Positions 1-50,094 of a DNA stretch of 64,000 nt are shown one piece after another (position 1 is the stretch's first letter; every line of letters begins with the position of its first letter). The position numbers were made by a program, and so were the translations under genes. Source of the stretch: a virus. The notes under the pieces are model-generated. The model did not search any database. It saw only the letters and a list, made by a program, of their open reading frames with translations, and was not told where the DNA came from. The DNA lies in the IMG/VR virus record IMGVR_UViG_3300041405_000299, positions 64,001-128,000 of that record; one strand, 5' to 3'.

Positions 1-756
1 ACCCACACGGTTCTTAATGCTCGGATTGGTGGCAATCCACTGACCGGTACCGACGTCAATCAAACCGCCACACTTGTCACAGGACGGACCCTGAGGTTTA
101 CAGATCGCAATGCACGTCTCGTAATCCCGAGGAATGACCCAGTGGTTACAGTGAGTACACTTGGTGGCCCACTCCAGACGGTTGGTCCTGAGCCAGAGTT
201 GCTCCAGCGTATTCGCCGAAGACTTAGACGTGCCAGCCAACACCTTCAGAGCGTACTCCGAGGCGTTCAGGATTTCAAAGATCGGCGGGAGCGCGTCATA
301 GGACACGTCCTGGACTTCGTCGACGGTCAGAAGGTCCGCCATCAGACCACGGATACGGTCGGCGTCGGATTCTGTCTGGGCGTACGACAGGTAAATCTTT
401 GAGCCGTTCGAGAAGGTCTTCTCAAACACGTTGCTCGTGTCGGTCGTTTTACGGAAGTACTTCTTCACAAGCGGGCTTTCCAGGAACGCATCGAGGTAAG
501 CATTCGAGAAACGCTTCGCCTGGATCTGGAACGGGGCGATGTACAGTGAGTTGAAGTACGCACGGCCGATACTCTTGGATACAAGGCGGCCCCCGAGGGA
601 TACGGACTTACCGATCTGACGACCGGCTTTGAAGACCATGATGTCCGGATCAATATCATAGATCTTCGTGAACGGTCTGTAGTTGTCAAAGTCGATCGGC
701 TTACCCTTCAGTTCGAGAAGAGCGGCGGCCAACTGACTGGATGTGGCTTTTTTCAT
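1..756 (-). CDS. terL: Terminase large subunit, N-terminal part (runs off left edge)
   Basis: This is the DNA-packaging motor ATPase, which docks on the portal and cuts and translocates the genome. Read on the minus strand from the ATG at 756, 252 residues are visible and the frame is open to the window edge. The ATPase fold is clear: a Walker A of the terminase type, GRQIGKS, at residues 45-51, and a Walker B ending in acidic DE at 146-147 (LLTVDE). A zinc-ribbon-like insertion follows, with CxxC pairs at C200/C203 and C226/C229, which is unusual between the ATPase and nuclease domains. The nuclease domain should lie beyond the left edge. The start is supported by AGGAG about 8 nt upstream (CAGGAGAAATTCATG). 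Confidence 0.9.
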   Translation of the reverse strand, partial: MKKATSSQLAAALLELKGKPIDFDNYRPFTKIYDIDPDIMVFKAGRQIGKSVSLGGRLVSKSIGRAYFNSLYIAPFQIQAKRFSNAYLDAFLESPLVKKYFRKTTDTSNVFEKTFSNGSKIYLSYAQTESDADRIRGLMADLLTVDEVQDVSYDALPPIFEILNASEYALKVLAGTSKSSANTLEQLWLRTNRLEWATKCTHCNHWVIPRDYETCIAICKPQGPSCDKCGGLIDVGTGQWIATNPSIKNRVG

Positions 757-779
757 GAATTTCTCCTGTGGCTATTCAA

Positions 780-787
780 TATTTTAG
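780..787 (-). promoter_or_regulatory. Putative late promoter box CTAAAATA
   Basis: On the minus strand CTAAAATA lies 24 nt before the terminase start. The same octamer recurs at similar distance before several other minus-strand virion genes (8058, 37971, 41260, 43123; CTAAAATC at 51827). Promoter function is inferred from recurrence and position only. Confidence 0.45.
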
Positions 788-795
788 AATACCTT

Positions 796-805
796 GGTAT
801 AATAA
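796..805 (+). promoter_or_regulatory. Putative promoter box GGTATAATAA for the ubiquitin-like cassette
   Basis: TTGGTATAATAA is a variant of the GGTATAAGTA box found before many plus-strand genes here. TATAAT is a perfect bacterial -10, and a weak TTCAAT lies 17 nt upstream. It is 56 nt before the start of the ubiquitin-like gene. Confidence 0.5.
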
Positions 806-861: not shown

Positions 862-1251
862 ATGTCTACTATCACTTCTACTGTTGTTCACATTCCTGGC
901 CGCGACGCTCGTACTCTGGACGGCATGGATTTGACTAAAGAAGACGCAGCACGTCAGTTCGACCAGGCTTTCCAGACAGCGTCTATGGACGTTCGTGATG
1001 ACGTGGTTGATGGCGTTCGCCACATTTACTTCACCCGCCGTACCGGTACCAAAGGTGCGGAAATCAGCTCTACCGTTGTTCACATTCCTGGCCGTGACGC
1101 CCGTACTCTGGACGGCATGGATCTGACCAAAGAAGACGCAGCGCGTCAGTTTGATCAAGCGTTCCAGACTGCATCTATGGACGTTCGCGATGACGTAGTT
1201 GACGGCGTGCGTCACATCTACTTCACCCGTCGTACCGGTACTAAAGGCTAA
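862..1251 (+). CDS. Tandem (two-module) ubiquitin-like protein, PRTRC protein C-like
   Basis: A protein of 129 aa made of two consecutive modules of about 64 aa. Module 1 ends at G65 and module 2 at the C-terminal G129, both with the sequence RRTGTKG. From the STVVHIPGRD stretch to the terminal glycine the two modules are identical over 60 residues, yet their DNA differs at 21 synonymous codon positions, so the protein is under strong selection. Each module is the size of a beta-grasp ubiquitin-like domain, and a GTKG end is how I recall the PRTRC system protein C family. The downstream E2-like, JAMM and E1-like genes fit a modifier role. The last residue is already glycine, so only the internal junction would need cutting, presumably by the JAMM protein. 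The start has AAGGAA upstream. A terminator follows, separating it from the enzymes. Tandem poly-ubiquitin-like genes are known in bacterial operons; the assignment here is by motif and context. Confidence 0.75.
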   Translation: MSTITSTVVHIPGRDARTLDGMDLTKEDAARQFDQAFQTASMDVRDDVVDGVRHIYFTRRTGTKGAEISSTVVHIPGRDARTLDGMDLTKEDAARQFDQAFQTASMDVRDDVVDGVRHIYFTRRTGTKG

Positions 1252-1270
1252 GCCACTCGGCTTGGTCTAA

Positions 1271-1302
1271 AAGAGGAGCCCATTGGGCTCCTTTTCTTTT
1301 TT
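1271..1302 (+). terminator. Intrinsic terminator after the ubiquitin-like gene
   Basis: Stem GGAGCCC-ATT-GGGCTCC (1275-1291) followed by a T-rich tract. It lies between the modifier gene and the five genes behind it, so read-through would set a lower level for the enzymes than for the modifier. Confidence 0.8.
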
Positions 1303-1318
1303 AGTCACTGGAGGCTTT

Positions 1319-2287
1319 ATGTCCCAACCCCTATTCTCCCCGTCGTCTCCAGATGCCTTAAGGCATCTTTACCAAGAGCCATCCGATACCCATAACTTCC
1401 AAGCTATCGTCGAGCACATCACTACCGATGGCCTGGGCGTTCGTGTTAATCGCAATGGTTATACGGATAGTGCGAGCACTGAGTATAACTTCGGCCCTAT
1501 CTCCGGTGGTGAAACCCAGCAGAATCTCAACGCTTTGGAAAACTGGATTCGTTACCTGAACATGTCCGCCGAAGTGATAACCCTTGGGCTGTTCCGTGAA
1601 CGCTTAACACCTCACGTGCAGGCTGATAACCGCTCGGTGGCCGCAGCTTTCAACCGTCTGAACCACGACAGTGTTAATGCCATGCTTTCTATGATGGTGG
1701 GTTACATCGGGAAGGATATCAAATTACCGCTCCGAGCGCTAGGACCGATAGTGAATGGCTCGTGGTCTCACTATGAAGATCCTGATATCCGTTACACCGA
1801 AGATCAAACTGGCACTTACCATACGCTGTTACCACAGGGAGTGAGCGACGTACGCACCATTTCGTGTTACCTCGAAGATCAGCCGGTAGTCCGCCGCTAC
1901 CTGCGTTATATCGACAGCATTGCCCGTCGCCACGGTATCCGTTTGGTGTATCTCCCTAAACATTTTGCCCATTTGGAAGAAATCGACACGGTATCCAGCC
2001 CAACGCTTCATGTTGAGGATGGTGCAATGCGTCGTCGTATCAACCTGCCAGATGGCTACAAGGCCCTGTTCGTTTCACTGGCCTTCGACTACCGGGCATT
2101 CTCCCACCTGACTTTAGCCGAAACCGCCGTTCAACCTGAGCAACGTCAGAGGGAACCGGATGCCATGTGTTACGGTCCGGTGTTTGTAGAATACCTGGAC
2201 TCTATTATTCAAGTCCTCAAACAGCTGGGAGGTTTCTCCTCATGCAAGATCTTTTACAAGGCCTTCAGAACGCACGCGAGATCGTAG
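1319..2287 (+). CDS. Unknown protein of the ubiquitin-like cassette (PRTRC-F position)
   Basis: 322 aa. I chose ATG 1319, preceded by CTGGAGG, over an in-frame TTG inside the upstream terminator. I do not recognise a domain. The protein is soluble looking, without signal peptide or membrane segment. It sits between the modifier gene and the E2-like gene, the position held by protein F in PRTRC cassettes as I remember them (order C-F-B-A-ThiF), so it may be a diverged F homologue or a substrate or adaptor. Its 3' end overlaps the next gene by 46 nt, showing tight coupling. Confidence 0.7.
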   Translation: MSQPLFSPSSPDALRHLYQEPSDTHNFQAIVEHITTDGLGVRVNRNGYTDSASTEYNFGPISGGETQQNLNALENWIRYLNMSAEVITLGLFRERLTPHVQADNRSVAAAFNRLNHDSVNAMLSMMVGYIGKDIKLPLRALGPIVNGSWSHYEDPDIRYTEDQTGTYHTLLPQGVSDVRTISCYLEDQPVVRRYLRYIDSIARRHGIRLVYLPKHFAHLEEIDTVSSPTLHVEDGAMRRRINLPDGYKALFVSLAFDYRAFSHLTLAETAVQPEQRQREPDAMCYGPVFVEYLDSIIQVLKQLGGFSSCKIFYKAFRTHARS

Positions 2288-2487
2288 CCAGCGGGCCCGT
2301 TGTAATGGAAGAGATTCAGCGTCAATTGATGGCGGTCGAATCCCCTCTGGAACGTATGATGCTGCTTCGCAACATTCAGTTCCGCATCACTCGTCGAGCA
2401 CCTGATTCAGGCCGCCGTGGTCGTAACTCTGCCACGCCGGACTTCGGGGCTTATCGTCAAGTCCGCACTAAGAGTAACTACGTATGA
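2242..2487 (+). CDS. Small basic protein of the ubiquitin-like cassette, unknown
   Basis: 81 aa starting at ATG 2242 behind GGGAGG. The first half is predicted helical (DLLQGLQNAREIV, then EEIQRQLMAVESPLERMMLL). The second half is arginine-rich and probably flexible (RITRRAPDSGRRGRN). It overlaps the preceding gene by 46 nt, and its last 4 nt (ATGA) overlap the E2-like gene, so it is translationally coupled. There is no recognised family. Its place makes it a candidate adaptor or ligase-like factor, or a target, of the conjugation system; this is speculation. Confidence 0.65.
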   Translation: MQDLLQGLQNAREIVASGPVVMEEIQRQLMAVESPLERMMLLRNIQFRITRRAPDSGRRGRNSATPDFGAYRQVRTKSNYV

Positions 2488-3284
2488 GCAATAATGAAGG
2501 GATTACCGTTACCCTCTTTGACAGTCATGTTCGTGTTCCTAATGGCATGGGTGCCAATAAAAACATTTCGTTGACCGACTTCGTTGCCGAGCTGCAGCGT
2601 GTCGCCACCGGTGGTGAACAGCAACGGGAACCTCTGCGGGCTTTTCGCCTGCCGAATGAAGCCCTGAGCATCAAAGTAAATCGCAACGAGCTGCATATCC
2701 TGATGTACTTCCCGGAGCGTATCCACGATCTGCAGTACATCCCGAACCGCTCTCGTGACGGCCGCGGTACGTATTCCTGTCCGATTCCACCAACGGTCAT
2801 TTTCTGTAAGCTGCAGCATAATAGCAGCAACAACAAGTGGACCCTGGAGCAAGTCAAGTGGTTCTGTACTGATTACAAAGAAGATGAAGTACCGAGCCTG
2901 GAAGACTGGGGTACTAACCCTCAGAACCACCGTAACCACCTGTGGCCGCTGCCATTCCCTAACCAGTATGGTGATGGCAACATGTGTGTCGGTGCGAACT
3001 CCTACCGTACGCTCTATGAGCCGGACCTTCGTGGTTTGAACGAACTGTATCACCACGTGCTGCTGGCCTCGCCGTTTAACGACGACCTAGGCACGCGTAC
3101 GAAAGATGGTTGGGAACCTATCCGTTTGTTCCGGTTCCTGAAGGATAAACCTACGTTTCCGTTTGAAATTCTCCCGGGACATCCGGGAACTATTAACCGT
3201 GCTGAAGCTGAAGCGGCCGATGAGGCCAGCGATGAAGATGAAGACGACAATGACAACGACGATTGGGATGGAGAAGAAGAATGA
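2484..3284 (+). CDS. E2-like ubiquitin-conjugating protein (PRTRC protein B / prokaryotic E2 family D-like)
   Basis: 266 aa. Residues 155-170 read PLPFPNQYGDGNMCVG, which follows the E2 active-site pattern (PN...G.hChG), making Cys168 the candidate thioester residue. A hydrophobic strand pattern and a proline-rich stretch (PIPPTVIF, 100-107) precede it, as in E2 folds. The C-terminal 27 residues are almost all acidic (DEDEDDNDNDD), an unusual tail that could dock partners. The gene lies directly upstream of the JAMM gene with an ATGA overlap. In PRTRC cassettes protein B holds this place and is assigned to an E2-like family. Identification rests on the Cys motif and gene order, so a structure prediction would be the test. 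Confidence 0.7.
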   Translation: MSNNEGITVTLFDSHVRVPNGMGANKNISLTDFVAELQRVATGGEQQREPLRAFRLPNEALSIKVNRNELHILMYFPERIHDLQYIPNRSRDGRGTYSCPIPPTVIFCKLQHNSSNNKWTLEQVKWFCTDYKEDEVPSLEDWGTNPQNHRNHLWPLPFPNQYGDGNMCVGANSYRTLYEPDLRGLNELYHHVLLASPFNDDLGTRTKDGWEPIRLFRFLKDKPTFPFEILPGHPGTINRAEAEAADEASDEDEDDNDNDDWDGEEE

Positions 3285-4477
3285 GCACTAATGGCGTAAT
3301 TGAACTGGTACCTTTCATGAATTCACTGGTCACCGAAGATGCTTTCTTCGTGGGTGGCGACTTCCTGCAGAACCCGATTGTCCACGTGCTGGGCAAAGAC
3401 GGTGCGCTTTACCGTTATAACCAATTCTCTCTGGGCCGTTCTTCACTGATCAAAGTGGCGGATACCCCAATCAAGCTCGGTGCGTCCAAGCTTAAGCCTT
3501 ACCTGAACCCGCTGGTGAACAACCAGAAAATCCCTGTGCAGATGCTGCATGACATCCTGGAATTCTTCAAGAAAGTCATGACCATGATCGGCACCGGTGG
3601 TAAGCACGGTGAGTACGAAGCTATGGCCCACATTGTGTGGAACAAAACTTCCCAGTCTTACCGTGTTGCTATTCCGACGCAGAAAGTCTCCAAGGCCCGC
3701 GTGGCATACGACTGGACTCACGTGAAGGAAGATGAAGAGGTTATCCTCGACATTCACTCTCACAACACCATGGACGCGTTCTTCTCTGGCGTTGATGAAG
3801 CCGATGACAAAACCTATGCCGGTATTTCCGGTGTGGCCGGACAGCTGGATAAAGCTACTCCGAAAGTCATCTGGCGCTTCAATGCGTACGCGGACAAAGT
3901 GGGCAATCTCGATATGGGGGATTTCTTCGCGATGCCGGAAAAGTCTGTATCGCCGGAAGTGGACACCTGGATGGGAAACGTGGAAGTGCAGACGTACTCA
4001 GCACCAGCCTACAACTACCGCAATCCAGGCAGTACTTCGAAAGTGTTCGGTGGTGGATCACTTGCCGGCGCTGGCTCAGGAAAGTTAAACCGCTTTGATG
4101 ATGAAGTGCTGAGCGAGCAGGAGGAAAGCTGGAATGCCCGATTTCGCGGCACGGGCGAGACGGGAGCGTCGACGGGTTTTGGGTCCGCGAGATCTGAAGC
4201 GCTAGACTTTCTAGACCCGGAATTCCATAACAGCAACCTATTAGGCATGGGGATCGACGCGGACACCCCCTGGGATGACGTCGTAACGGATTTGGTAAAT
4301 TCCGTCTACAACGAAGATGACGACGAAATGAACGCTGCGGTTGCCAAAGAGCTGGCGAACAATGTCGTTGATGATGAAGTCCTGTTCCAGGAAGGCATCT
4401 TTGTTGTTACTACTGCGAGTGAAGCCCGCAAGGTCATTGCTCGTTTGAATAAAGATTTTGATATTCGGAGTGCGTAA
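3281..4477 (+). CDS. JAMM/JAB metalloprotease (deubiquitinase-like; PRTRC protein A-like)
   Basis: 398 aa; ATG 3281 overlaps the E2-like stop. The zinc-binding JAMM signature is complete: HSH at 159-161, seven residues, Ser169, two residues, Asp172 (HSHNTMDAFFSGVD). A glutamate at 111 or 113 (HGEYEAM) lies on the upstream strand. These residues hold the zinc and the catalytic water in Rpn11- and AMSH-type isopeptidases. The likely jobs are cutting the two-module modifier after G65 and removing it from targets. About 200 further residues follow the JAMM core (from 200), rich in Gly/Ser and acidic residues, with no recognised domain. The stop overlaps the E1-like start (TAATG). Confidence 0.88.
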   Translation: MSTNGVIELVPFMNSLVTEDAFFVGGDFLQNPIVHVLGKDGALYRYNQFSLGRSSLIKVADTPIKLGASKLKPYLNPLVNNQKIPVQMLHDILEFFKKVMTMIGTGGKHGEYEAMAHIVWNKTSQSYRVAIPTQKVSKARVAYDWTHVKEDEEVILDIHSHNTMDAFFSGVDEADDKTYAGISGVAGQLDKATPKVIWRFNAYADKVGNLDMGDFFAMPEKSVSPEVDTWMGNVEVQTYSAPAYNYRNPGSTSKVFGGGSLAGAGSGKLNRFDDEVLSEQEESWNARFRGTGETGASTGFGSARSEALDFLDPEFHNSNLLGMGIDADTPWDDVVTDLVNSVYNEDDDEMNAAVAKELANNVVDDEVLFQEGIFVVTTASEARKVIARLNKDFDIRSA

Positions 4478-5526
4478 TGTTTTCCTACAAAAACCGTCAG
4501 ATCATGAACAATGTGGTGGTTGTAGGCTGTGGCGGCACAGGTGGCCGCCTACTGCCAATGCTTGGCCAGATTATGTCACGCGGTCAGTGGAATGATCTGG
4601 TACCTACCATCACGCTGATTGATGGCGACGAGGTTGAAGTCAAAAACCTTACCCGCCAGAACTTTATCGTGGATGACGTAGGCCGTAATAAAGCCGAGTG
4701 TTTAGCGGAACGTTATGGCTCTGCGTTTGAAATCCCGATTGTGTGTGTACCGCGTTACTTTGAAGGCAGCGAAAACTTCACCCGTTGGTTGGCCGGTAAC
4801 GTACCGGAAAGCATGCGTCGTTTGGTGTGCGAACGCCCGACGACCTTCTTCCTGTGCGTTGACAATATGAAGGCTCGCTTTGAGATCATCCAAGCAATCC
4901 TCTACGCTACGTTGGCGTCTGACGTCGAGCACCTGATCATCGATGCCGGCAATGAGAACACCTACGGTCAAACCCGTGTGTATTCCTCTCGTGTGCTGTC
5001 GGGGTCGGATGTTTCCGGTGAATACGTGGCTCTTAACCACTTAGATCGTCTGGTGCCGAAAGAAACCGGTAGCACTATCCCTCTGCCTTACATTCCGTGT
5101 CCTATGGCGGAGTATCTGCGTGCTTCTGGTTATCAGGGCAACCCAGATGCTTCCTGTGCGGATCTGGAACAAACGGCAGCGGTAAATGCGGTAATGGCAA
5201 TGTCCATGTTCCAAATCTTCCAGAACATCTACATGATGATGCCGCTGAAAGTGGAAACGTGGTTCTATGACATTCACAACGGTAACGAGCAGGTGCGTTT
5301 TGACCGGAGCTGGCTGGAAGACGTGTTCAACGGGAACCGTTATAAAGTCGGTCGTGATGAAGATACTCGAATCTATCCAGTATCGACGAGAACAATGAAG
5401 AGCATCTACGATTCTAGCCACATGCATCTGTGGGGTGAAATCGAAGCGAGCATTGACAGTCAGTTGGAAGCGGGTACGCTCGAAAGAGTTTCCCCGCAGA
5501 TGGCTGAGATCTTGGGTATCAGTTAA
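4477..5526 (+). CDS. E1-like ThiF-family activating enzyme (PRTRC ThiF-like)
   Basis: 349 aa. A Rossmann adenylation domain is clear: glycine loop GCGGTGG at 17-23, ID-G-D at 49-51, the ThiF/E1 arginine in NLTRQNF at 57-63, and DVGRNKAE at 67-74 with the conserved lysine. The C-terminal part has SCADLEQTAAVNAV with Cys227, a plausible thioester cysteine in the position seen in related E1-like proteins. It would adenylate the GTKG terminus of the modifier and pass it to the E2-like protein. It is translationally coupled to the JAMM gene and ends the operon. The next gene is convergent with a 4-nt overlap and no visible terminator between them. Confidence 0.9.
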   Translation: MFSYKNRQIMNNVVVVGCGGTGGRLLPMLGQIMSRGQWNDLVPTITLIDGDEVEVKNLTRQNFIVDDVGRNKAECLAERYGSAFEIPIVCVPRYFEGSENFTRWLAGNVPESMRRLVCERPTTFFLCVDNMKARFEIIQAILYATLASDVEHLIIDAGNENTYGQTRVYSSRVLSGSDVSGEYVALNHLDRLVPKETGSTIPLPYIPCPMAEYLRASGYQGNPDASCADLEQTAAVNAVMAMSMFQIFQNIYMMMPLKVETWFYDIHNGNEQVRFDRSWLEDVFNGNRYKVGRDEDTRIYPVSTRTMKSIYDSSHMHLWGEIEASIDSQLEAGTLERVSPQMAEILGIS

Positions 5527-5756
5527 GCCTCAAGATCGGCCCGGCGTTCCCGTGTAGCTTTGTCGGGGGAATCAGAGACGGAATACACCCCGATTTCTGT
5601 TCCTTCGACATTGTACATGCGGAGAATGCCGGCTTTCTTATCCCACTGCCAGGAGCCCATTGTGGCTCCCTGCAGTTCACTCAGGAAGTCCAAACCCTTT
5701 TTTACATCGGAATGGAGGTCTTCCAGTTTGGCCATTACATCATCAATCGTTGCCAT
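5523..5756 (-). CDS. Small unknown protein, last gene of a minus-strand virion operon
   Basis: 77 aa. I chose ATG 5756 (GGAGCGAG upstream; TAATG overlap with the preceding gene) instead of a longer in-frame ORF. The N-terminal half is a probable amphipathic helix (DDVMAKLEDLHSDVKKGLDFL). The C-terminal half is beta-like (GSWQWDKKAGILRMYNVEG). No family is recognised. It is the fourth gene in a coupled run beginning at 8027. Confidence 0.65.
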   Translation of the reverse strand: MATIDDVMAKLEDLHSDVKKGLDFLSELQGATMGSWQWDKKAGILRMYNVEGTEIGVYSVSDSPDKATRERRADLEA

Positions 5757-6238
5757 TACACTCGCTCCATTGCTAAGGCGTACAGACGAATAGCTTTCGC
5801 CCGATCCGCTTTCTGCTCTTCGCTTTCCCACTGGTTCTCAAACGGAGCCGTGATAAAGTCGAACGGTGGCGGTGCTGACCCGAAGCCTTCATCCTGCAGG
5901 ATGTAGTGGCAGACGGTCTGAATGGCATTCGAATACTCCAAACCTGGCAGGATTCTTTTTAGCTCCATCAGACCCCAAGCCAGTTCCAGCACGTTAGGCA
6001 TGTAGGCAACCGTCGGGTCTACCGCGTGGGCGTTAGCCGCTTCCACGAACCGCAGGAAGTACGACGCGTCCTGTTCAAACAGGTGCGGGTGCTCGCCTAC
6101 GGCACGCAGAATGGTAAGCTGTGAAAGCATCACCGGTGTCAGCACGTGGCCAAGGTCCAGAGAGATGGTTTCCAGCTCGAGCTCAGGCCAATCAGGCCCA
6201 TAACGTTTATCCAGTGACGCTTTCAGTTTGCTTAGCAT
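5756..6238 (-). CDS. Unknown protein in minus-strand virion operon
   Basis: 160 aa, largely helical and soluble. The start ATG overlaps the end of the upstream gene (TGTAAATG) and its own stop overlaps the next start. I recognise no domain. The aromatic and proline-rich C-terminal third (APPPFDFITAPFENQW) may be an extended contact arm. Context with the terminase and other late genes suggests a virion or assembly role. Confidence 0.7.
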   Translation of the reverse strand: MLSKLKASLDKRYGPDWPELELETISLDLGHVLTPVMLSQLTILRAVGEHPHLFEQDASYFLRFVEAANAHAVDPTVAYMPNVLELAWGLMELKRILPGLEYSNAIQTVCHYILQDEGFGSAPPPFDFITAPFENQWESEEQKADRAKAIRLYALAMERV

Positions 6239-7101
6239 TTACACAGTCTCGCCAGTAGTTGTTTTTCAGGCAGTGGCAGGGCTTCCACACCACGCTTAAG
6301 GTTCATCAGGTCTCCACTCAGGAGATCCGCAATGTCATCACCGATCATCGACTGTACTTGGTCCTTCGGCAGGCCTTGCAGAGTAACCGCAGGAACCGAC
6401 TTGCTGCCCAGGTTCACAATGATAGAGCGATCAATGGCCACTTTGGTGATCATGAAGGCATCTTTGTAGAAGTCACCGAGGTATCCCGCTTTCTTCTCAA
6501 AGTGAACCACTGAGCCAGCCAGGGCACGGTTCTCTTCGACGGTCAAGGCGTCCGGGTTAGTACCGCGGAACACTTCTGCCAGTTTGGTGAACTCAGAACG
6601 TCCAGTCACTCGGGCACGGTGCTCGAGGGCCATCAGAGCAGCTTCTTTGTTCAGTTTGCCTGCACCGGCGTACAGACGAACGGTGTCAGATTTCAGTTCT
6701 TCAGAGTAGTTATCATACAGGGCTGCAGACTGGCTCGCAACCTTCTCGATATCCATGAAGCCTGAACATTTGGATTCAATGATGGCCTCAGCGGTACGGA
6801 GCTCATACTCAATACCACGGGCTTCTTCTGCACGAGCAGACGCAGCTTTTTCCATTTGGCCACTCAGACGACGAACTTCATCACCGACGCCATAGAGACG
6901 CACGGCTTTAGTAACCCGAGCGACATCGTCATAGTCCACAACCTGTCCAGCAACCTTCGTTAAGAAGTTGATTTCCAGAGCTGATGCAACAGTACTGTCC
7001 CGATCTTTGGTAGGGAAGTCTTCTTCCACATACGCACGTTTGATGAATCCTGAAGCTTCGGGAACAAGCTCAAGGACGCTTTTGATAGCATGAAGTGACA
7101 T
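6232..7101 (-). CDS. Probable virion protein with repeated h-x-K-x-A motifs
   Basis: 289 aa, mostly alpha-helical, no recognised family. It carries about eight copies of a hydrophobic-x-K-x-A motif spread along its length (LTKVAG, MEKAAS, IEKVAS, LNKEAA, FTKLAE, FEKKAG, ITKVAI and FIKRA). The same motif marks several head proteins between 30 and 38 kb, which ties this gene to the virion set. Start ATG 7101 overlaps the preceding stop (TAATG). Confidence 0.7.
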   Translation of the reverse strand: MSLHAIKSVLELVPEASGFIKRAYVEEDFPTKDRDSTVASALEINFLTKVAGQVVDYDDVARVTKAVRLYGVGDEVRRLSGQMEKAASARAEEARGIEYELRTAEAIIESKCSGFMDIEKVASQSAALYDNYSEELKSDTVRLYAGAGKLNKEAALMALEHRARVTGRSEFTKLAEVFRGTNPDALTVEENRALAGSVVHFEKKAGYLGDFYKDAFMITKVAIDRSIIVNLGSKSVPAVTLQGLPKDQVQSMIGDDIADLLSGDLMNLKRGVEALPLPEKQLLARLCKC

Positions 7102-37993: not shown

Positions 37994-39412
37994 TTAGCCA
38001 TTGCTATCGGTCATGGCCTTGAGGATCTCTTTAGTCAAAGCGTCTTTTGTATCCGAAGAGTTTTTCAGATAGTCATCGATGCCTTGTCCACGTGAAAAAT
38101 GTCCGAAGAGTTTTGGCTTCGAGGCAGCGTACCGCATGACCCGGACCTTACGTTCTTCTTCCGGTAAATCCGCATGCGACTTATAGCGAATGCCGCGGCC
38201 AATTACCTGGTCAATTTTCTTGTTGTTGAAGTGTGGCTCCATACCTTGGAAGGAACGCGTTCCTTTGAGGTCAAGGCCTTCCGAACCTGCTGATGATAAC
38301 AGAATTGCCTTCACTCGTCCTTCGTTATAATCCTTCACCGCTTGCTTGCGCTCGGCTGCCGTAGTCTTGCCGGTGAACATCACTGTCGGGATTCCCTTTT
38401 CGGTCATCTGACGGTGTGCTTCTTCCAGGCCTGACCCTAAGTAGTTCGAGTAGATAATACCTTTGTGATTAGGATTGTCCTTCATCATACCTTGGAAATC
38501 GCTGACAATGCGATCAATCTTTGGTGCCGATGGGTGACGCGTGGTAAAACCGGCATCGGTGTTACTGATTTGGCGGATCGCAGCGGAGAAGGCGTTCAGG
38601 TTCTGGGCCTCTTTCTTATCCAGCGGCAGGTTCATACGGATCTTAAGCCGAAGTGGCAGAGGGATAGTCCCTTCCGCATACTGATAAGCCCGAAGTTGCT
38701 GTGGGCTCATGTCGACATGAACCATCTCATCGGTACGATCAGGGAATTCATTCTTCAGGGATTCCATGGCGTTAAAGCGGTCCATGTAGTCCTTCCCGAT
38801 GCGACGCAGTATCGCCTGGTTCTTCACGGTCATCTTCTCGCCCGGTGTGACACCCAGGATACGCATCAAGAGACCCGGTTTTACCTGTGTCTTTGAGATG
38901 AACGCGTCATCAAACTTCGCTGCGTCTTCTGGCATAACCTCAGAGCCGGCCGTGGTGTTAATCACCTTAGCGATGTCTGATCGTTGGTTGTAAATCGGGG
39001 TTGCCGTCAGGAGCAATCGCTGCTTGGCAGACCGGGAGATTTCACGAACGGCGTCAGAGCGAAGACCGGAGTTACGCACGCGGTGGGCTTCATCCATCAC
39101 CACCAAGTGATACTTCTTGTTCTTGTACGCTTCAGACTTATTGGTCGCACCCTCATAGGAATCCACATCGATGCGACTACGGATTTCCGGGTCAATACCG
39201 TGCTTGTCCATCTCCTTGTGGAGGTTGTCTCGCAGCGGCGCCGGCACGACAAACAACGAGCGTGCCCCGGGGTTCGCTTTCAGTACTTTGCTGGCGGAAT
39301 CCAGAGCCGAAAGGGTCTTCCCTGACCCTAACGAGTGATAAGCGAGGACAGACTTGCCCTCACCGATCTTATTGGAAATCCGCTCCTGATGTTCCTGGAG
39401 GTGATATGCCAT
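37994..39412 (-). CDS. SNF2-type superfamily 2 ATPase/helicase next to RNA polymerase
   Basis: 472 aa with a full motif set: Walker A SLGSGKT at 27-33, DEAH at 106-109 (VVMDEAHRVRN), LLLTATPIYN at 132-141, a GSEGLDLKG motif and QVIGRGIRY near the end. The order and style are like compact SNF2/poxvirus NTPase-type enzymes that act with RNA polymerase. The start overlaps the beta-prime C-terminal gene stop (TAATG), so the two proteins are probably made together and may work together in transcription elongation, termination or DNA remodelling. This functional link is inferred. Confidence 0.85.
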   Translation of the reverse strand: MAYHLQEHQERISNKIGEGKSVLAYHSLGSGKTLSALDSASKVLKANPGARSLFVVPAPLRDNLHKEMDKHGIDPEIRSRIDVDSYEGATNKSEAYKNKKYHLVVMDEAHRVRNSGLRSDAVREISRSAKQRLLLTATPIYNQRSDIAKVINTTAGSEVMPEDAAKFDDAFISKTQVKPGLLMRILGVTPGEKMTVKNQAILRRIGKDYMDRFNAMESLKNEFPDRTDEMVHVDMSPQQLRAYQYAEGTIPLPLRLKIRMNLPLDKKEAQNLNAFSAAIRQISNTDAGFTTRHPSAPKIDRIVSDFQGMMKDNPNHKGIIYSNYLGSGLEEAHRQMTEKGIPTVMFTGKTTAAERKQAVKDYNEGRVKAILLSSAGSEGLDLKGTRSFQGMEPHFNNKKIDQVIGRGIRYKSHADLPEEERKVRVMRYAASKPKLFGHFSRGQGIDDYLKNSSDTKDALTKEILKAMTDSNG

Positions 39413-41229
39413 TAGTATTTACCGTTTGCCCCTTCCCCGAACGCACCGCCGAGAATGTACGGAGCAATTGGGTCTGTACTGGTTGCCGGTGATTCCATAC
39501 CGGTTGACGCGGCTTCACGTAAAGTTTTACCGATCTGCTTAAACGCCAAACGAGAAAGCCAGTTGGTGTCATGCAGCTTGGCCGTCTTGATACCTGGGAC
39601 GATCGGGTCTACGATCAGACCAGACTTCGTCGTGTGCACTTCACTGATGCCGTGCTTGTTCAGGTACTGCAGGTGGTTTGCATCCAGCAGCGTACCCGGA
39701 GTCAGTTCCAGAACCGGACGGGCCAGACGTTTACCGGCAGCACGCTCAAGTGGCAGCGTTTCGGTATCTTTCTGCAGTTCATCCTGGATGTGGTTTACCG
39801 ACACCGTTTGTCCCGGGAGGTAACCGGTCTCACCGGCATCTCGCACTTTCACGTACTTGATCAGGTTCTTCGCGATCAGGTCAAAGTGACGTGGGTCCAT
39901 GCCGCCGCCATAAATTTCGGACAGCTGGTTAGACATGTATCGACGACCTTCACCAAGGCCACGCAGGGCCACCAGCTCACGCGGGTTGATCGTACCGGTA
40001 GACAGCGCCTGACCGATTTTGATCTTGTGACCCTCACCGACAATGACGTCCTGTGAGTTAGGAATGAAGTATTCCTTGCCGCTAACGTGCACTTTTGCGT
40101 CACCCAAGCTGGTGGTTTCCACGTGAGTCACTTCCCCGTTGTGTTCCGCAATGATCGCTTTGTCCGGGAACTTCTCCTGGTTAACCAAGAGGTTGGAGGT
40201 CTGGTCAAACGGGTTAGCGGACTTACCGGACTTGGCGTCGTGCTTGGTACCGAGGATCATCTGGGTCAGAACTTCCGATGCCGATTGAGCCGCGACCACG
40301 CCGACGTTCTCACCGATTTCCGGCAGGTGACCACGAGAGTCCAGGCCGTAGCACTTCTGGCACACACCTTCTTTAGCTTGGCACGTCATAGTGTTACGCA
40401 CTTTTACGCTCTTGGTTCCGTCCTGCTTGAGATCGTTGAAGTAACGCTCGTCGATCAGGCGGTTCGTTGAAGCTTCAAAATGGTACAGCACGCGTTTCTT
40501 ATCGGACATAGGCTCTACGATACCGTTATGGGTACCGCAATCGACTTCCGTTACAACCTCATGATAAAGGTTAGGCGTGATCGATTTGAACATGTCACCG
40601 GGCTTTGACGTCGAAAGCTGTGCCTGTACGGTGTTACCGCGGCCCCAATAAGACATCGCCAAGTGTTCCGCCGGCGTCAGACCTTCAGCGAATGAGTGAG
40701 TAATCGCCAGAGGAATTGGCGTACCGTCAATTCGCTTAGACTGGATCGGTGAAGACGTACCCTGTTGAAGCTGGTTAGGGTTACCACGGGCACCGGTCTG
40801 AGCCATCAGGGCTGCCGTCGACTTACGTGACATCATATACTTCAGGTTTTGATCGGTCAGGATCTTCTGGTACTTCGTGGAGATCTCTAGGAGTTCTTCA
40901 CGCTTTTCACGTTCAGACAGGCCTTGCTTGTCGTTCACGTGGTTTACCGCGGTTTCGTACTCTTTCAGCAGAGCTGAGCGTTCGTCCGAATCGTTGTAGT
41001 AATCCGACAGTGGCGTCGAATACCCGTGGTCCGTTGCCGTGTGGAAGAAAAGGTGAGACAGATCGGAAATCGTATCTGCTGCCTTGTCACCGCCGTGCGT
41101 GATCACGTTTGAGATCAAGTCTTTTACGCCATTCTTGTTCAACACTTGCGTGGGATCGAAGTGCTGTTTTGAGTTTTCAGGAAGCATGCTGCGAATGAGT
41201 AGCGCCCCGGGAGTGATAATTTGAGTCAT
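39412..41229 (-). CDS. rpoC: RNA polymerase beta-prime subunit, C-terminal part
   Basis: 605 aa. ATG 41229 has AAAGGTG at better spacing than the ATG three bases before it. Conserved beta-prime landmarks: GARGNPNQLQQ; SFAEGLTPAEHLAMSYWGRG; four zinc cysteines in DCGTHNGI and TCQAKEGVCQKCYG (equivalent to E. coli C814, C888, C895, C898); bridge-helix region GENVGVVAAQSASE; and a trigger-loop-like LTQMILGTKHD with its histidine. It complements the beta/beta-prime-N fusion at 45237-49820. The split falls after the catalytic DxDGD site, comparable with, though not the same as, the split subunits of cyanobacteria and phiKZ-type phages. Confidence 0.92.
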   Translation of the reverse strand: MTQIITPGALLIRSMLPENSKQHFDPTQVLNKNGVKDLISNVITHGGDKAADTISDLSHLFFHTATDHGYSTPLSDYYNDSDERSALLKEYETAVNHVNDKQGLSEREKREELLEISTKYQKILTDQNLKYMMSRKSTAALMAQTGARGNPNQLQQGTSSPIQSKRIDGTPIPLAITHSFAEGLTPAEHLAMSYWGRGNTVQAQLSTSKPGDMFKSITPNLYHEVVTEVDCGTHNGIVEPMSDKKRVLYHFEASTNRLIDERYFNDLKQDGTKSVKVRNTMTCQAKEGVCQKCYGLDSRGHLPEIGENVGVVAAQSASEVLTQMILGTKHDAKSGKSANPFDQTSNLLVNQEKFPDKAIIAEHNGEVTHVETTSLGDAKVHVSGKEYFIPNSQDVIVGEGHKIKIGQALSTGTINPRELVALRGLGEGRRYMSNQLSEIYGGGMDPRHFDLIAKNLIKYVKVRDAGETGYLPGQTVSVNHIQDELQKDTETLPLERAAGKRLARPVLELTPGTLLDANHLQYLNKHGISEVHTTKSGLIVDPIVPGIKTAKLHDTNWLSRLAFKQIGKTLREAASTGMESPATSTDPIAPYILGGAFGEGANGKY

Positions 41230-41259
41230 CATGTCACCTTTTCGTTGATCAACTGAACC

Positions 41260-41277
41260 TATTTTAGGGTATAAGTA
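41260..41277. promoter_or_regulatory. Divergent promoter pair between beta-prime C gene and plus-strand island
   Basis: TATTTTAG (41260-41267, minus-strand CTAAAATA, 31 nt before the beta-prime gene) touches GGTATAAGTA (41268-41277, 25 nt before the 41302 gene). Both box classes abut in 18 nt. Confidence 0.5.
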
Positions 41278-41301
41278 AGGTAGAGAAAACGAGGAGAGTT
41301 T

Positions 41302-41568
41302 ATGTTCAGTAAGTTGTTCGTTGTTCGTCACCGAGGCTTCCGTAGAGATTTCGAAGTACCGGTCCCCAACTACATCGACCGAGAGTTACGGAGCTACAAC
41401 TTCTTCGTCAAAGAGATTCTACTCTTTGGCGTCATCCGGGTCTATAGCAAGACCCTTTTCAAAGAGCATGTGCCTAACTGGGCATGGATACAGGAGGGAA
41501 CACAAGGCTTTACTGAGTGGAGATCCACAGCGCCACAAGAGCTCTGGGATTTATGCAAGAAGGTTTAG
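41302..41568 (+). CDS. Small unknown protein, accessory island
   Basis: 88 aa with GAGGAGAG upstream and a promoter-like box. Rich in aromatic and basic residues, with no clear domain (NFFVKEILLFGVIRVYSKTLF). First gene of the plus-strand island that separates the two halves of the polymerase. Role unknown. Confidence 0.6.
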   Translation: MFSKLFVVRHRGFRRDFEVPVPNYIDRELRSYNFFVKEILLFGVIRVYSKTLFKEHVPNWAWIQEGTQGFTEWRSTAPQELWDLCKKV

Positions 41569-45212: not shown

Positions 45213-45238
45213 AAGGGGCCCGAAGGCCCCTTTCTTTT
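45213..45238. terminator. Bidirectional terminator
   Basis: GGGGCC-CGAA-GGCCCC with TTTCTTTT on the plus side, between convergent 44599 and the polymerase gene (whose stop it overlaps). Confidence 0.75.
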
Positions 45239-48200
45239 AGCCAATTTTGATTGGCGTGTTCGACTTGATCTTACCTTCCTTCAAGGCTGCCAGCGCTTCC
45301 GCTTCGGTCTTGAAGTGATGGACTTCCTGGTCCATGTCCGGTTTGGTCAAGTGCACGGAACCGAGGATGGCTTCGTGACCCGGGGCGAACATTGGGTTAC
45401 CGAACCCACGGCGAGCATCGTGCAGGTGAGAAGAAGGTCTTAACTTCTCGCGAGCTTCCTTCACAGCTTCCGGTGTCATCGGCACGTACATCGACAAGGC
45501 ATCACCGTCGTAGTCCGCTGCGTAACCCGGCAGGTGCAGGATGTTTAGACCGATGGTCTTCCCGTCAGATGGAATCGGCTTCATGGCCATGATGTTGGTA
45601 CGCATCAGGGTTGGAGCACGGTTCAGCAGAACAGGCACGGTATCCACGATGTGGTTGAAAGAAGCTGTCGCCGCGTCGTTACGTGACTCGTAGGCGTTCT
45701 TCGCTTCCGCTAAGTCGTAGCCCTTCTGGCTCAGGTCGCGGATGATGTGCATCTTGTACATCTCCCACAGCTGATCCTTCGGAATCTTCGCTTCGTTGAA
45801 GCCCACGTCCGGCGCCGCGTAAATGGTACCACGACCAGAGAAGTCCTGCTTTTTAGACAGTAATTTGCTCTGGAAGAAACCATTCTTCGGTCCTTCGTTA
45901 CCTTCAATCTGCTCGAGCAGACCTTTCAAACCTTTCTGCTTCGCCTGGAAGTCGATTGGCTCACCGCCGGCCATGATGGCCTTCGCACCGTTATACAGAT
46001 CACGACGCAGATCGGTCATACCTTCCATGTCTGGAGAAATCAGGTCCATGTCCCCGACTTCATCTTCCAGACGCTTCAGACGGCCGTTGACCAGCATGTG
46101 GTGCTTGTACAGGTCGTTCACGTCAGCAAAGCCCAGACGGGTACCAGAGATTGAGTACGGACGCATCACCGGAGGAATGACCGGCATGTTGTGCAGCACG
46201 TACGCTTTCGACGGGTCGGTAAAGTCTTGCTTATCCAGACCGGCCAGGTACTTCATCTTCTTAACCATCTTGTCACGCTTGCTAGCAGATTTCTCGTCTA
46301 CGATTGACGCTTTCAGATGATTCAGCTCGTCCTGAACGTTGATGTCACCCAACATGGCTTTCAGAGCGTGGCCGCCAACCAGGGTATCACCCTCATCTGA
46401 AGCTTGCTTGTCCAGCATACCGGAAACGTTCACACGCTTAATCAGCTCGTCATCCTTGTGAGTGTCCACGAGGTCGAACTGGCCTTTTCCACGACGGATA
46501 ACGCCGAACTTACCAGACACGATGTTGTTGAACTGATCCTGGTTCAGACCCAGCAGGGTTTTCACCGGTGCTTCCATGATCGGGTTTACGATCGGTTCCA
46601 TCAGCTTGTAGTGAGACCAGTTGGTACCTTCCGGTCCGCCGGTCACGGTCATATCGAACAGACCGCCTTTCACTGGTGCCACGTTACGAGCCAGAATCAT
46701 GTCAGGTTTCTGCACTTCACCTGAAGAGTTCGCCAGGACTTCCCGGTCGGTCATCGGCCCCGCGACGAGGTTACCATTACGCTCGGACACGCTGATCCCA
46801 GAACCACGCAGATAATCGAAGAACTTCTTCGTTGCGAAGGTCGTTTTCGGCTGTGGCAGCGGAAGGCCACGCATGAATTTGTCCCAGTAGTCGTGCGTAT
46901 CGGCATGATCACCACCTTCTGATTTGACCGTACCGATCTCTTTCAGGTTGGCACGGGCGTTTGAGCCCAGCAGGCCCAGGAACTCCATGTAACCAACAGA
47001 CTTCGCACCGTCGTCACCGCCTTTGGTAGGCTGAGCGTTGTTGTCGTAACCGCCGACAGAACGGGCTGAGTAGTTGGCATCGGTCGTCTTGTTCAGCTTC
47101 AGAATGTACTGTGGACCCGTCAGCACGCGGTCACCGTAAACCTGACCGGTCTTCGGGTTGTACAGTGTGTCGGTGTCACTCAGGCCATGCTCTTTCAGCT
47201 TCTCCATCATGTTCTTCACGACGGTGCCTTCGTCATAGACTTTAGTCTTGTACGGAGTACCTGTCTTCTGGGCGATCTTGCCGGCAGCGGCTTCGAATAC
47301 TTGGCCCAGGTTGATACGTGAAGTCACAGACGCTGGGTTCAGGATCATATCCAGAGGTTTACCGGTTGTCTTCGAGTGCGGCATATCTTCATCTTCTTCG
47401 ATGAGAGAAACGACACCCTTGTTACCGTGCAGGCCGGTTACCTTGTCACCGACTTCCAGCTTACGCTCAGAACGGACCATGATGCGGATCTTCGACCCAT
47501 CGGTAGAACAGTCGGTTACTACGCCTGGCTCTTCGTGATCCCAGATCTCAGCGGCTGAACGGTATGGGTTCACCAGGGTCTTGTGCAGACGGCCCAGAAC
47601 CATATCGGTTTCAGTCAGCGTACGCGTCTCGAGAACGGCGTAAACCGGGTCACCGTAATGCAGCGTCACACCCGGCTTAGCGAAGCCACGGTTATCCAGC
47701 TTGTTCAGCTGATCGGCTGTGAACTTACCGGCGAACGCAGACTTGTACTTGCCGAGATCCGCAACGGTTTCTTTACCCATTGAGTACTCGATTTTGTACG
47801 CGTGGTTCGACGTCAGCTTCTCACAAGCAGAACGTGACACAACGATACCATCTTCATGGTTAAAGCCTTTGTACGGCATGTACGCCGTTTCCAGGTTCTT
47901 ACCGATAGCGAACTCGCCGCCTTTGGTGTAGTTGTTGTCAGACAGCACTTGGCCGGCTTTGACTTCATCACCAACGTTCAGACCGTGAGCTTCGTCGTCG
48001 TGGAAACCTTTCATGTTAAACGGCAGGTTCTTCACGAAGTCGATCTTGTGGTCCGAACCATCTTCATGGGAACGGATGGTTACACTGTTCGGCTCGGCTT
48101 TGATGACCTTACCAGCTACCGGCGACACCGTGGATACGATCTGACCGATTTGCTTGACGAACGTCTGACCGTTGTCCGCCACGGTTTGCACCAGTGGTGC

Positions 48201-49820
48201 TTCACGATGAACCAGTGACAGTGCCTGAGGGATCGCCTTACCCGCCATGGTCAGACGACCTGGGTGGTTGGTGTTCAGGAACGGCACGAGGTTAGTCGTG
48301 ATGGTGTACATGTCGGTACCTGATGGAATCCAGTATTCAACCTGAGCACGCGGAACGCTTTTGAACTCACCGTTAACCTGGGCCTGCACGTCTGGCTTAC
48401 CGCTGTTACGACCATCTGGGAAGCCGATGACTTTGGTCATCAGTTCATTCGCCGACAGGTAAACCGTCTTACCGGTTTTCGCATCGATAGCACGAGAGTA
48501 CATGCCACCTTCTTTGTCACGACGGGCAGAAATGGTGAAACGCTGGTCCAGACCGGCAGATGATGACTCTGGGGTACGGCTTGGGTCGATGATTCCCAGG
48601 TTTGACGGGTGCACGTTACGTGACTCGGTCGTTGCCTGACGCTCAGAGGACATACCACCTTCGCCTTTCGCAATCAGCGTAACCTTACCGACGTTTTCGA
48701 TAGATTCGATCGGGTTGGTTTCATCCGGCGTTGAAGACAACTGTGAGCCGATAACAAAATCGGTGTAGATCTTGTTGAAAGGCTTAGCCGGCACAACTTC
48801 ACGCAGACTTGGTGCTTCATCCTTCAGACGGCTCATGTTGTACTTGATGCGGTCAAAGGCCTTGCCTACGGTCTGGTGCTGCTTGTTTTCTTCGAAGCGA
48901 CGAGCGATAAAGTCCGGCAAGTTCTGGACACGCTTGAATTGCAGTGAGTCACGGTTGTCTTCCGGGCGCTTCTTAGAGTACACGCTAACGATGTTCTTCA
49001 TCGCACGCAGTAGGGTTTCTGCCTCGATGCCACCGAAGGATTTACCGAGGGTGATTTCGGTTGTTTCCTTGTCCAGAGTCATCTCTGCCAAACGTTTCTT
49101 CAGGGCGGCACCCATCTCTTCACCAGAGACATTCTTCGATTGCTCGCGACGGTCCACCAGACGACGGTACAGTTGGTTCAGAGCAACATCTTCTTTGCCT
49201 TGAGTCAACTTCACGTTTGCCTGCCACACGTCCGTTGGAACGAACTTCAGGATCTCAGCCGTACCCAAACCGAAGCCTTTGGTCAGCAGCGGTGCGATCG
49301 GGATGTGCAGCGTGTTGCCGTTAATCTTGGAGAAATAAATCTCCATGGTCTTCGAATCCAGGCCGAGTGAGAACGTTGCACCTTTACCGGTGTTGATGTT
49401 GGTCTCGAGCTCGCCATTATTGGTCCGACGGGTATACACGCCAGGACGCAGCTGCATCAGGTTAGCAACCGAGTAGTTGTTCCCTTTGTACAGCAGCGTG
49501 TGCTTGTTGGTCACGTGGAAGGTATCCGCCAAGGCGAAGTCTTTCACACGGTCCACCAGCTTGCCGGTTGCACGGTCGTGCAGCAGCAGCGTGCCACGGA
49601 TTGGATAGGTCAGCGAGCGAGACTTAAGGATGGCTTCCTTTTCATCGGCCGTGGTGTACGTCTTTTTATCGATGTACGGGTCCGTAATCGAAAGGGTGTA
49701 CTTACCGGTTTCGATAGGGAATTGCTTGACGATCCCGTCCATCATCGCCCCGTCAGTCGCATCATTGATGGACTTAGGTGATGAGAAAATCGGAATCAGT
49801 TCACTGGCTGACTTAGGCAT
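45237..49820 (-). CDS. rpoBC: RNA polymerase beta subunit fused to N-terminal part of beta-prime
   Basis: 1527 aa from ATG 49820 (ATGGAGAAACG upstream, overlapping the previous gene). The beta part begins near residue 70 with YPIRGTLLLHD and RPGVYTRR and ends with the conserved GDKVTGLHGNKGVVSLIEEDEDMP and LNPASVTSRINLGQ block. Beta-prime starts in the C-terminal quarter: NRAPTLMRTNIMAMKP, then YAADYDGDALSMYVP, where Asp1436, 1438 and 1440 would hold the catalytic magnesium (NADFDGD in bacteria). The rest of beta-prime is in 39412-41229. It lies between the portal and protease genes, so it is probably late, perhaps packaged. No alpha or omega gene is seen. Confidence 0.93.
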   Translation of the reverse strand: MPKSASELIPIFSSPKSINDATDGAMMDGIVKQFPIETGKYTLSITDPYIDKKTYTTADEKEAILKSRSLTYPIRGTLLLHDRATGKLVDRVKDFALADTFHVTNKHTLLYKGNNYSVANLMQLRPGVYTRRTNNGELETNINTGKGATFSLGLDSKTMEIYFSKINGNTLHIPIAPLLTKGFGLGTAEILKFVPTDVWQANVKLTQGKEDVALNQLYRRLVDRREQSKNVSGEEMGAALKKRLAEMTLDKETTEITLGKSFGGIEAETLLRAMKNIVSVYSKKRPEDNRDSLQFKRVQNLPDFIARRFEENKQHQTVGKAFDRIKYNMSRLKDEAPSLREVVPAKPFNKIYTDFVIGSQLSSTPDETNPIESIENVGKVTLIAKGEGGMSSERQATTESRNVHPSNLGIIDPSRTPESSSAGLDQRFTISARRDKEGGMYSRAIDAKTGKTVYLSANELMTKVIGFPDGRNSGKPDVQAQVNGEFKSVPRAQVEYWIPSGTDMYTITTNLVPFLNTNHPGRLTMAGKAIPQALSLVHREAPLVQTVADNGQTFVKQIGQIVSTVSPVAGKVIKAEPNSVTIRSHEDGSDHKIDFVKNLPFNMKGFHDDEAHGLNVGDEVKAGQVLSDNNYTKGGEFAIGKNLETAYMPYKGFNHEDGIVVSRSACEKLTSNHAYKIEYSMGKETVADLGKYKSAFAGKFTADQLNKLDNRGFAKPGVTLHYGDPVYAVLETRTLTETDMVLGRLHKTLVNPYRSAAEIWDHEEPGVVTDCSTDGSKIRIMVRSERKLEVGDKVTGLHGNKGVVSLIEEDEDMPHSKTTGKPLDMILNPASVTSRINLGQVFEAAAGKIAQKTGTPYKTKVYDEGTVVKNMMEKLKEHGLSDTDTLYNPKTGQVYGDRVLTGPQYILKLNKTTDANYSARSVGGYDNNAQPTKGGDDGAKSVGYMEFLGLLGSNARANLKEIGTVKSEGGDHADTHDYWDKFMRGLPLPQPKTTFATKKFFDYLRGSGISVSERNGNLVAGPMTDREVLANSSGEVQKPDMILARNVAPVKGGLFDMTVTGGPEGTNWSHYKLMEPIVNPIMEAPVKTLLGLNQDQFNNIVSGKFGVIRRGKGQFDLVDTHKDDELIKRVNVSGMLDKQASDEGDTLVGGHALKAMLGDINVQDELNHLKASIVDEKSASKRDKMVKKMKYLAGLDKQDFTDPSKAYVLHNMPVIPPVMRPYSISGTRLGFADVNDLYKHHMLVNGRLKRLEDEVGDMDLISPDMEGMTDLRRDLYNGAKAIMAGGEPIDFQAKQKGLKGLLEQIEGNEGPKNGFFQSKLLSKKQDFSGRGTIYAAPDVGFNEAKIPKDQLWEMYKMHIIRDLSQKGYDLAEAKNAYESRNDAATASFNHIVDTVPVLLNRAPTLMRTNIMAMKPIPSDGKTIGLNILHLPGYAADYDGDALSMYVPMTPEAVKEAREKLRPSSHLHDARRGFGNPMFAPGHEAILGSVHLTKPDMDQEVHHFKTEAEALAALKEGKIKSNTPIKIG

Positions 49821-50094
49821 GCAGTCGTTTCTCCATGTAAATAACAACACAGGTGTAAACCCCTGTGGTACCCGAGATCGAGTCTTTGCGTTCGAGGACA
49901 ACAACGTCACCACTTAAGCTGCGGGTCAGCAGCGTTTCAAGTGGGATGGTATCATCATCTTCGCCGCCGATCGTGAAGTGACCGACGCGATAGACGAACT
50001 GCGACGGGTCAAACCCGACGTCTTCAAGAGCCGGGGTCATCCCCGGCATGCTCGATCCCTTATTGCTGGTTTCCAGCGGATTGATCTTGCTCAT
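49813..50094 (-). CDS. Small unknown protein between portal and RNA polymerase
   Basis: 93 aa from ATG 50094 (CAGGAGCAC upstream). Overlaps the portal end by 35 nt and the polymerase start by 8 nt. C-terminal half beta-like (GDVVVLERKDSISGTTGVYTC), N-terminus flexible. Tight coupling hints at an assembly or polymerase-associated role; nothing recognised. Confidence 0.6.
   Translation of the reverse strand: MSKINPLETSNKGSSMPGMTPALEDVGFDPSQFVYRVGHFTIGGEDDDTIPLETLLTRSLSGDVVVLERKDSISGTTGVYTCVVIYMEKRLHA

Follow-up and report, generated by a model that had tools for sequence, protein, structure and literature searches.

Introduction

Ubiquitin-like (Ubl) conjugation in bacteria is known mainly as an anti-phage defence. 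The PRTRC loci of plasmids have the gene order ParB-E-C-F-B-A-ThiF. PRTRC and type 6d of the Iyer operon classes are predicted conjugation systems; type 6d has a single Ubl, an E2 with a conserved downstream His, and a JAB-N domain with conserved Arg and Trp (Iyer, Burroughs, and Aravind 2006; PMC1779556). In the polyUbl operons of type 6e, tandem Ubl modules lie in a single gene, JAB is fused to E1, and E2 is inactive (PMC1779556). In the present study we analyzed a six-gene Ubl cassette at positions 862-5526 of a 64,000-nucleotide stretch ("the window"), which corresponds to positions 64001-128000 of the 172,104-bp virus record IMGVR_UViG_3300041405_000299. The cassette is likely to be a phage Ubl system of PRTRC type (Iyer 6d) that has a polyubiquitin-type modifier gene and serves a core function in the phage cycle.

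A survey of 224 jumbo phages makes no mention of such a system (PMC7824862). No description of one in a phage was found in the open-access literature; subscription journals and preprints were outside the scope of this search.

Composition of the cassette and relation to known systems

A first-pass annotation of the window had proposed a Ubl-type conjugation block of six genes on the plus strand of a jumbo phage genome. All parts of the block were found in place:

862..1251, plus strand: polyubiquitin-like Ubl gene (129 aa); modules 862-1056 and 1057-1248, each ending in TGTKG
1319..2287, plus strand: protein F (322 aa), located where PRTRC cassettes have protein F; homologues occur there in most of the terminase-linked lineage
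2242..2487, plus strand: small protein G (81 aa), overlapping the end of F
2484..3284, plus strand: predicted E2-like conjugating enzyme; FPN-x4-G-x2-C motif, Asn160, Cys168
3281..4477, plus strand: JAMM/JAB metalloprotease with a putative role in Ubl processing and deconjugation; HSH-x7-S-x2-D at residues 159-172
4477..5526, plus strand: predicted E1/ThiF activating enzyme; conserved Asp49, Arg60, Lys72, Asp129, Cys227

The details of that annotation were also borne out. Both Ubl modules have the GTKG ending, the second directly at the stop codon. Cys168 of the E2-like protein is invariant in 40 homologues. The JAMM motif is complete, and Glu113 is invariant in addition to His159, His161, Ser169, and Asp172. 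The E1 has GCGGTGG at residues 17-23, and Cys227 is present. From F onward each gene overlaps the next, by 46, 4, 4, and 1 bases. The term jumbo phage, however, does not apply: the record is 172 kb and genome sizes in the lineage are about 165-193 kb, versus the usual jumbo limit of 200 kb.

The closest known cassettes are those of Vibrio phages D69, D148, and D181 and Salmonella phage Arash (OQ632216), the nearest annotated phage (identity 64% for E1 and 59% for JAMM). Gene order was verified in Arash and D69, both of which have the six genes in the order of the window. The Ubl gene has one module in Arash, two in the window, and three in D69. Close copies of the cassette are present in four IMG/VR contigs. 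Related phages share both this set of six genes and its order, which indicates that the cassette did not arise by chance. None of the Arash, D69, D148, and D181 cassettes has been identified as a conjugation system in sequence records or in the Arash paper (PMC10585845). Iterated profile searches of open reading frames (ORFs) from viral loci and PRTRC plasmids showed that the order C(Ubl)-F-(G)-B(E2)-A(JAMM)-ThiF is common to many large-phage contigs. PRTRC-bearing "viral" contigs L071-L097 are probably mostly misfiled plasmids and were not used for claims about phages.

The cassette shares with PRTRC plasmids (e.g., pMOL28 of Cupriavidus metallidurans) the C (Ubl), B (E2), A (JAMM), and ThiF (E1) genes and the F position, in the same order and on the same strand. 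ParB and E belong to the plasmid cassettes but do not lie next to the phage cassette; no match to ParB or protein E was found among the six cassette proteins, and the upstream neighbor is a terminase gene. The phage proteins scored below the NCBIfam equivalog cut-offs. JAMM matched PRTRC_A at 1.6e-20 (73.5 bits; cut-off 101.8) and Pfam Prok-JAB at 2.9e-7, and E1 matched PRTRC_ThiF at 6.8e-15 (55.1 bits; cut-off 144.75) and Pfam ThiF at 8e-14. Hidden Markov models built from phage sequences only matched plasmid PRTRC_A (best 3e-15) and PRTRC_ThiF (best 1.5e-9) directly, whereas plasmid Ubl and E2 were reached only through intermediates. Profile comparison revealed no detectable homology between protein F and PRTRC_F.

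The likeness to type 6d lies in the separate Ubl, E2, JAB, and E1 genes, with predicted E2 activity, and in a largely helical fifth protein (a low-confidence model here). The Ubl gene, however, is an array instead of a single module, and the downstream E2 His is absent in the Arash branch. Tandem Ubl modules in a single gene recall type 6e, but JAMM and E1 are separate here and the E2 Cys is kept. Bil and type II CBASS (Cap2/Cap3) likewise combine E1, E2, and JAMM activities in one operon; Cap2, however, is an E1-E2 fusion, whereas the phage genes are separate. No CD-NTase match was found among the six proteins, and PADLOC E1-E2 models gave only weak matches to the E1 domain. No Bil model matched in PADLOC-DB 2023, a library whose Bil content is unverified, and the locus lies in a phage beside the terminase.

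Sequence comparison thus places the cassette as homologous to PRTRC/type 6d in four parts, and as a phage variant with a polyubiquitin-type gene as otherwise seen in 6e. We term it a variant because ParB and E are missing, F homology was not detected, the cut-offs were not reached, and the 6d E2 histidine is absent. Homology, conserved active sites, and gene order all support a Ubl conjugation cassette of PRTRC type on a phage genome.

Evolution of the Ubl gene

Among 59 aligned codons of the two window modules, 38 are identical, 21 differ synonymously, and none differs non-synonymously (dN 0, dS 0.80). Neighboring modules in other arrays showed 34/0, 36/0, 31/0, and 26/0 synonymous/non-synonymous codons; the remaining module pairs were more divergent, with as many as 24 non-synonymous codons (contig L044). 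Tandem Ubl modules are kept identical by selection while their DNA diverges, as in polyubiquitin.

The number of tandem modules per Ubl gene in relatives ranges from 1 to 6, and close relatives of the window phage have a single module. On the E1 tree of the lineage, the gene must have switched between single and multiple modules five times or more, and well supported branches force three of these switches. Each plasmid PRTRC C gene examined has one module; 70 plasmid records with PRTRC C gave 72 places, indicating that Ubl arrays are absent or rare in plasmids. Several family members have extra residues beyond the last GTKG, which would have to be cut off by a protease. The phage gene shares with eukaryotic polyubiquitin its head-to-tail modules, identical proteins with diverged synonymous sites, and variable copy number among relatives. 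It differs in having GTKG ends instead of GG and in its putative processing by the JAMM of the same cassette; the relation is one of analogy, not membership. The Ubl gene evolves like polyubiquitin, in the pattern of a precursor that would be cut into interchangeable monomers. This feature, absent from the first-pass annotation, bears on the origin of polyubiquitin genes.

The two-module protein could alternatively remain uncut and act as a fused di-Ubl similar to ISG15 or BilA. The precursor already ends in GTKG, so that its activation needs no cut, and the linker AEIS is short. However, close relatives have a single module, arrays reach 6 modules, and adjacent modules are identical in protein with diverged synonymous sites as in polyubiquitin, whereas the two domains of ISG15 differ from each other. 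We consider a fused di-Ubl improbable, and cutting into monomers the better account of the arrays.

The window Ubl had no convincing Pfam or NCBIfam match of its own (PRTRC_C 15.8 bits; cut-off 45.95). It matched L134 at 6e-6, and homologues L134, L096, and L072 link it to Prok_Ub/PRTRC_C. The six modules of L134 matched Prok_Ub at 5.9e-30, and the Pfam Prok_Ub cut-off was passed by L072, L096, L134 (six modules), and Bacillus phage KLEB27-3 (four modules). A beta-grasp fold is predicted for the Ubl by homology.

The KLEB27-3 gene (L004:2718-3425), annotated as hypothetical, has four Prok_Ub modules that are nearly identical and end in GVKG. Other very large phage contigs (≤264 kb) have from four to six Ubl modules: L134:1271-2350, L098:2742-3494, and L105:3114-3863, all placed outside the Arash lineage by the E1 tree. 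One phage has two adjacent, separate single-module Ubl genes (L063:4357-4548 and 4622-4807) and no fused array. GVKG in the L032 tail was considered as a second module and rejected.

Position of the cassette in the phage lineage

The cassette has fixed neighbors on both sides, on the opposite strand:

1..756, minus strand: terminase large subunit, N-terminal part, the fixed upstream neighbor (phrog_675, 1.9e-30; synteny)
5523..7101, minus strand: three fixed downstream neighbors, ORFs of 102, 160, and 289 aa, whose Arash homologues were found in virion preparations

Throughout the lineage the plus-strand cassette lies between the terminase gene and these three genes, homologous to Arash particle proteins. 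A search with the terminase only, independent of the cassette, gave 37 contigs with a related terminase and at least 5.7 kb on the relevant side. The cassette adjoined the terminase in 35 of the 37; the other 2 also had it, at a different place on the contig. The terminase profile was built from cassette-bearing phages, and some of the 37 contigs are near-duplicates. A position so constant across the lineage points to a role in the phage's own cycle. The cassette seems to be a core component of a phage lineage of about 165-193 kb, and protein tagging is probably part of reproduction in the whole lineage. A phage lineage would thus have a complete Ubl system, including a polyubiquitin-like gene, as a core element, which raises the question of why phages tag proteins.

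Gene order as in plasmid PRTRC cassettes would fit a plasmid cassette captured recently and carried as a passenger with no role in the phage. However, E1s of the phage lineage and of plasmids form separate, well supported clades, purifying selection is strong, and the E2 subfamily was not found, at the sensitivity used, in the genome_contigs collection (84,980 bacterial and archaeal species). A recent passenger is hardly credible.

The first-pass annotation had suggested that the cassette could be an accessory weapon or shield. Counter-defence would mean that Ubl is conjugated to host defence proteins, or that JAMM frees phage proteins from host tags, such as those attached by Bil or CBASS. 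Known bacterial Ubl systems such as Bil and CBASS act against phages, and a complete reversible cascade is suited to attack or protection. However, counter-defence genes are usually patchy and located in variable regions, whereas this cassette was found in all contigs of the lineage that allowed a test, almost always at the fixed position; moreover, a shield needs no E1, E2, or Ubl of its own. A core element, fixed between terminase and structural genes, fits better, and counter-defence is unlikely but is the alternative we take most seriously.

E2-like, JAMM, and E1 proteins

Three residues, Pro102, Asn160, and Cys168, are the only ones invariant among 40 E2 homologues. Asn160 lies eight residues ahead of Cys168, the spacing of the HPN-Cys motif in eukaryotic E2s, with Phe in place of the His of HPN. 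In the six Arash-branch sequences, SPFN replaces plasmid THPN. The window E2-like protein gave no convincing Pfam or NCBIfam match of its own; its homologues matched Pfam Prok-E2_D (L036 and L062 above cut-off) and PRTRC_B.

A structure check of the E2, proposed by the first-pass annotation, gave a divided outcome. The AlphaFold model is confident (pLDDT 87) and shows a helix, a beta-meander, the Cys loop, and C-terminal helices, but Foldseek gave no PDB match at E ≤ 0.001. Profile searching of solved structures and chains gave no sequence match for the E2, and in a viral structure library the model matched only unnamed or uncharacterized viral proteins. One of these is an ME3 protein of 294 aa, the same length as the E2-like ORF of phage ME3. 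Because there is no significant PDB fold match, the assignment rests on sequence homology, and we describe the 2484..3284 product as E2-like, its fold being unconfirmed by structure search.

The JAMM protein has an N-terminal extension of ~110 residues, and Arg53 and Trp120 are invariant in the Arash branch; this region is at most a candidate counterpart of the 6d JAB-N domain. Profile searching of solved structures gave no match for JAMM. Asp49, Arg60, Lys72, Asp129, and Cys227 of E1 are invariant among homologues with identity as low as 24%. The D69 E1 (L003:7929-8909) lacks a usual start codon, having ATT or ATC after AGGAG; the annotated gene begins late, and the nucleotide-binding loop is missing from it.

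ThiF-type E1s and small beta-grasp proteins also occur together in sulfur carrier or other small-molecule chemistry (ThiS/MoaD-like), and the cassette might serve such chemistry instead of protein conjugation. However, across the lineage E1 occurs together with an E2-like protein whose Cys and Asn are invariant, and domain searches of the six proteins gave no sulfurtransferase. A sulfur carrier role is very improbable compared with protein conjugation.

Cassette proteins in Arash particles

Proteins of Arash particles were reported by number from published mass spectrometry (PMC10585845). Four coverage values below 100% fit the lengths of gp243 (a neighboring gene, 159 aa), gp246 (E1, 346 aa), gp247 (JAMM, 412 aa), and gp250 (F, 320 aa). 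All four fit only when the paper numbers are one above those of GenBank; other offsets fit none, and identity of the two numberings was ruled out by this test. F, JAMM, and E1 are made during Arash infection and co-purify with particles, and E2 (Gp249, 100% coverage) probably does likewise. Phage Arash offers a model in culture on which the uncharacterized PRTRC systems can be tested.

The conserved Arash Ubl ORF (L002:107-307; 66 aa, single module) is unannotated, and GenBank has a wrong overlapping frame (L002:102-320, gp251c). The Arash Ubl was undetectable in the published search because it was absent from the annotation searched. Trypsin would cut within GTKG, so that a target lysine would keep one Ubl glycine; its mass of +57.02 equals that of carbamidomethylation. 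The search for GTKG-linked lysines suggested by the first-pass annotation therefore needs masses 444.2332 (TGTKG) or 600.3343 (RTGTKG), or else a different protease. The sole lysine of Arash Ubl is that in GTKG, which makes chains unlikely and single tags the likelier form in Arash.

Expression layout around the Ubl gene

Three elements were found around the Ubl gene:

773..805, plus strand: conserved upstream element with an extended -10-like sequence (TATTCAATATTTTAGAATACCTTGGTATAATAA), candidate Ubl promoter
1246..1267, plus strand: RNA hairpin over the Ubl stop codon, predicted in 7 phages, with covarying pairs
1271..1303, plus strand: intrinsic terminator between the Ubl and enzyme genes, 11-pair stem and T run

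The upstream element terminates in TGGTATAATAA. Its core is invariant in 6 related phages, and it is present as a single copy in the window. A promoter role is suggested, although a sigma-70 scan did not select the element. Upstream of the promoter-like site, an inverted repeat (773-792; TATTC-AATATTTTA-GAATA) with 5-base arms is largely conserved in six phages and is a possible operator. Compensatory base changes preserve the terminator in 7 phages, and no recognizable promoter was found for the enzyme genes that follow it. This layout naturally suggests that the modifier is made in excess over the enzymes.

Proposed mechanism

The following scheme draws on knowledge of related families. The Ubl gene would be transcribed from its own promoter, with most transcripts ending at the terminator behind it, so that modifier would be in excess; read-through would supply F, G, E2, JAMM, and E1 in lesser quantity. 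JAMM would cut the precursor after every GTKG, releasing near-identical monomers of ~65 residues. E1 would adenylate the terminal glycine and then form a thioester on Cys227. E2 would accept Ubl on Cys168, with Asn160, and pass it to a lysine. JAMM could later remove Ubl from the target.

Since the cassette is core to the lineage, its likeliest use would be modification of proteins of the phage's own cycle; virion assembly or DNA packaging is our first guess as target. A stronger version, in which the whole tailed-phage lineage depends on its own reversible Ubl modification of virion or packaging proteins as an obligatory assembly step, is tentative and has less than even chances. If true, a ubiquitin-style step would be obligatory for virus assembly in bacteria.

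Some observations weigh against this explanation. The modifier terminates in one glycine instead of Gly-Gly. No PDB fold was matched significantly by the E2 model (Foldseek, E ≤ 0.001). The type 6d downstream histidine is absent from Arash-branch E2s; no His is conserved downstream of Cys168 in the six sequences. In Arash particles, each protein is represented by 2-5 unique peptides, and carry-over from the lysate is possible.

Other features

Protein F had no family match in profile library searches. Its model is mostly helical with low confidence (pLDDT 70), and a fold search gave no significant match. Protein G was found only in the Arash/Vibrio D69 branch, and it had no convincing match in Pfam or NCBIfam.

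Elsewhere in the window, a 1558-aa chain (45237-49913, minus strand) joins Rpb2 (beta) and N-terminal Rpb1 (beta') RNA polymerase domains, and a separate gene (39412-41331, minus strand) encodes a further beta' domain.

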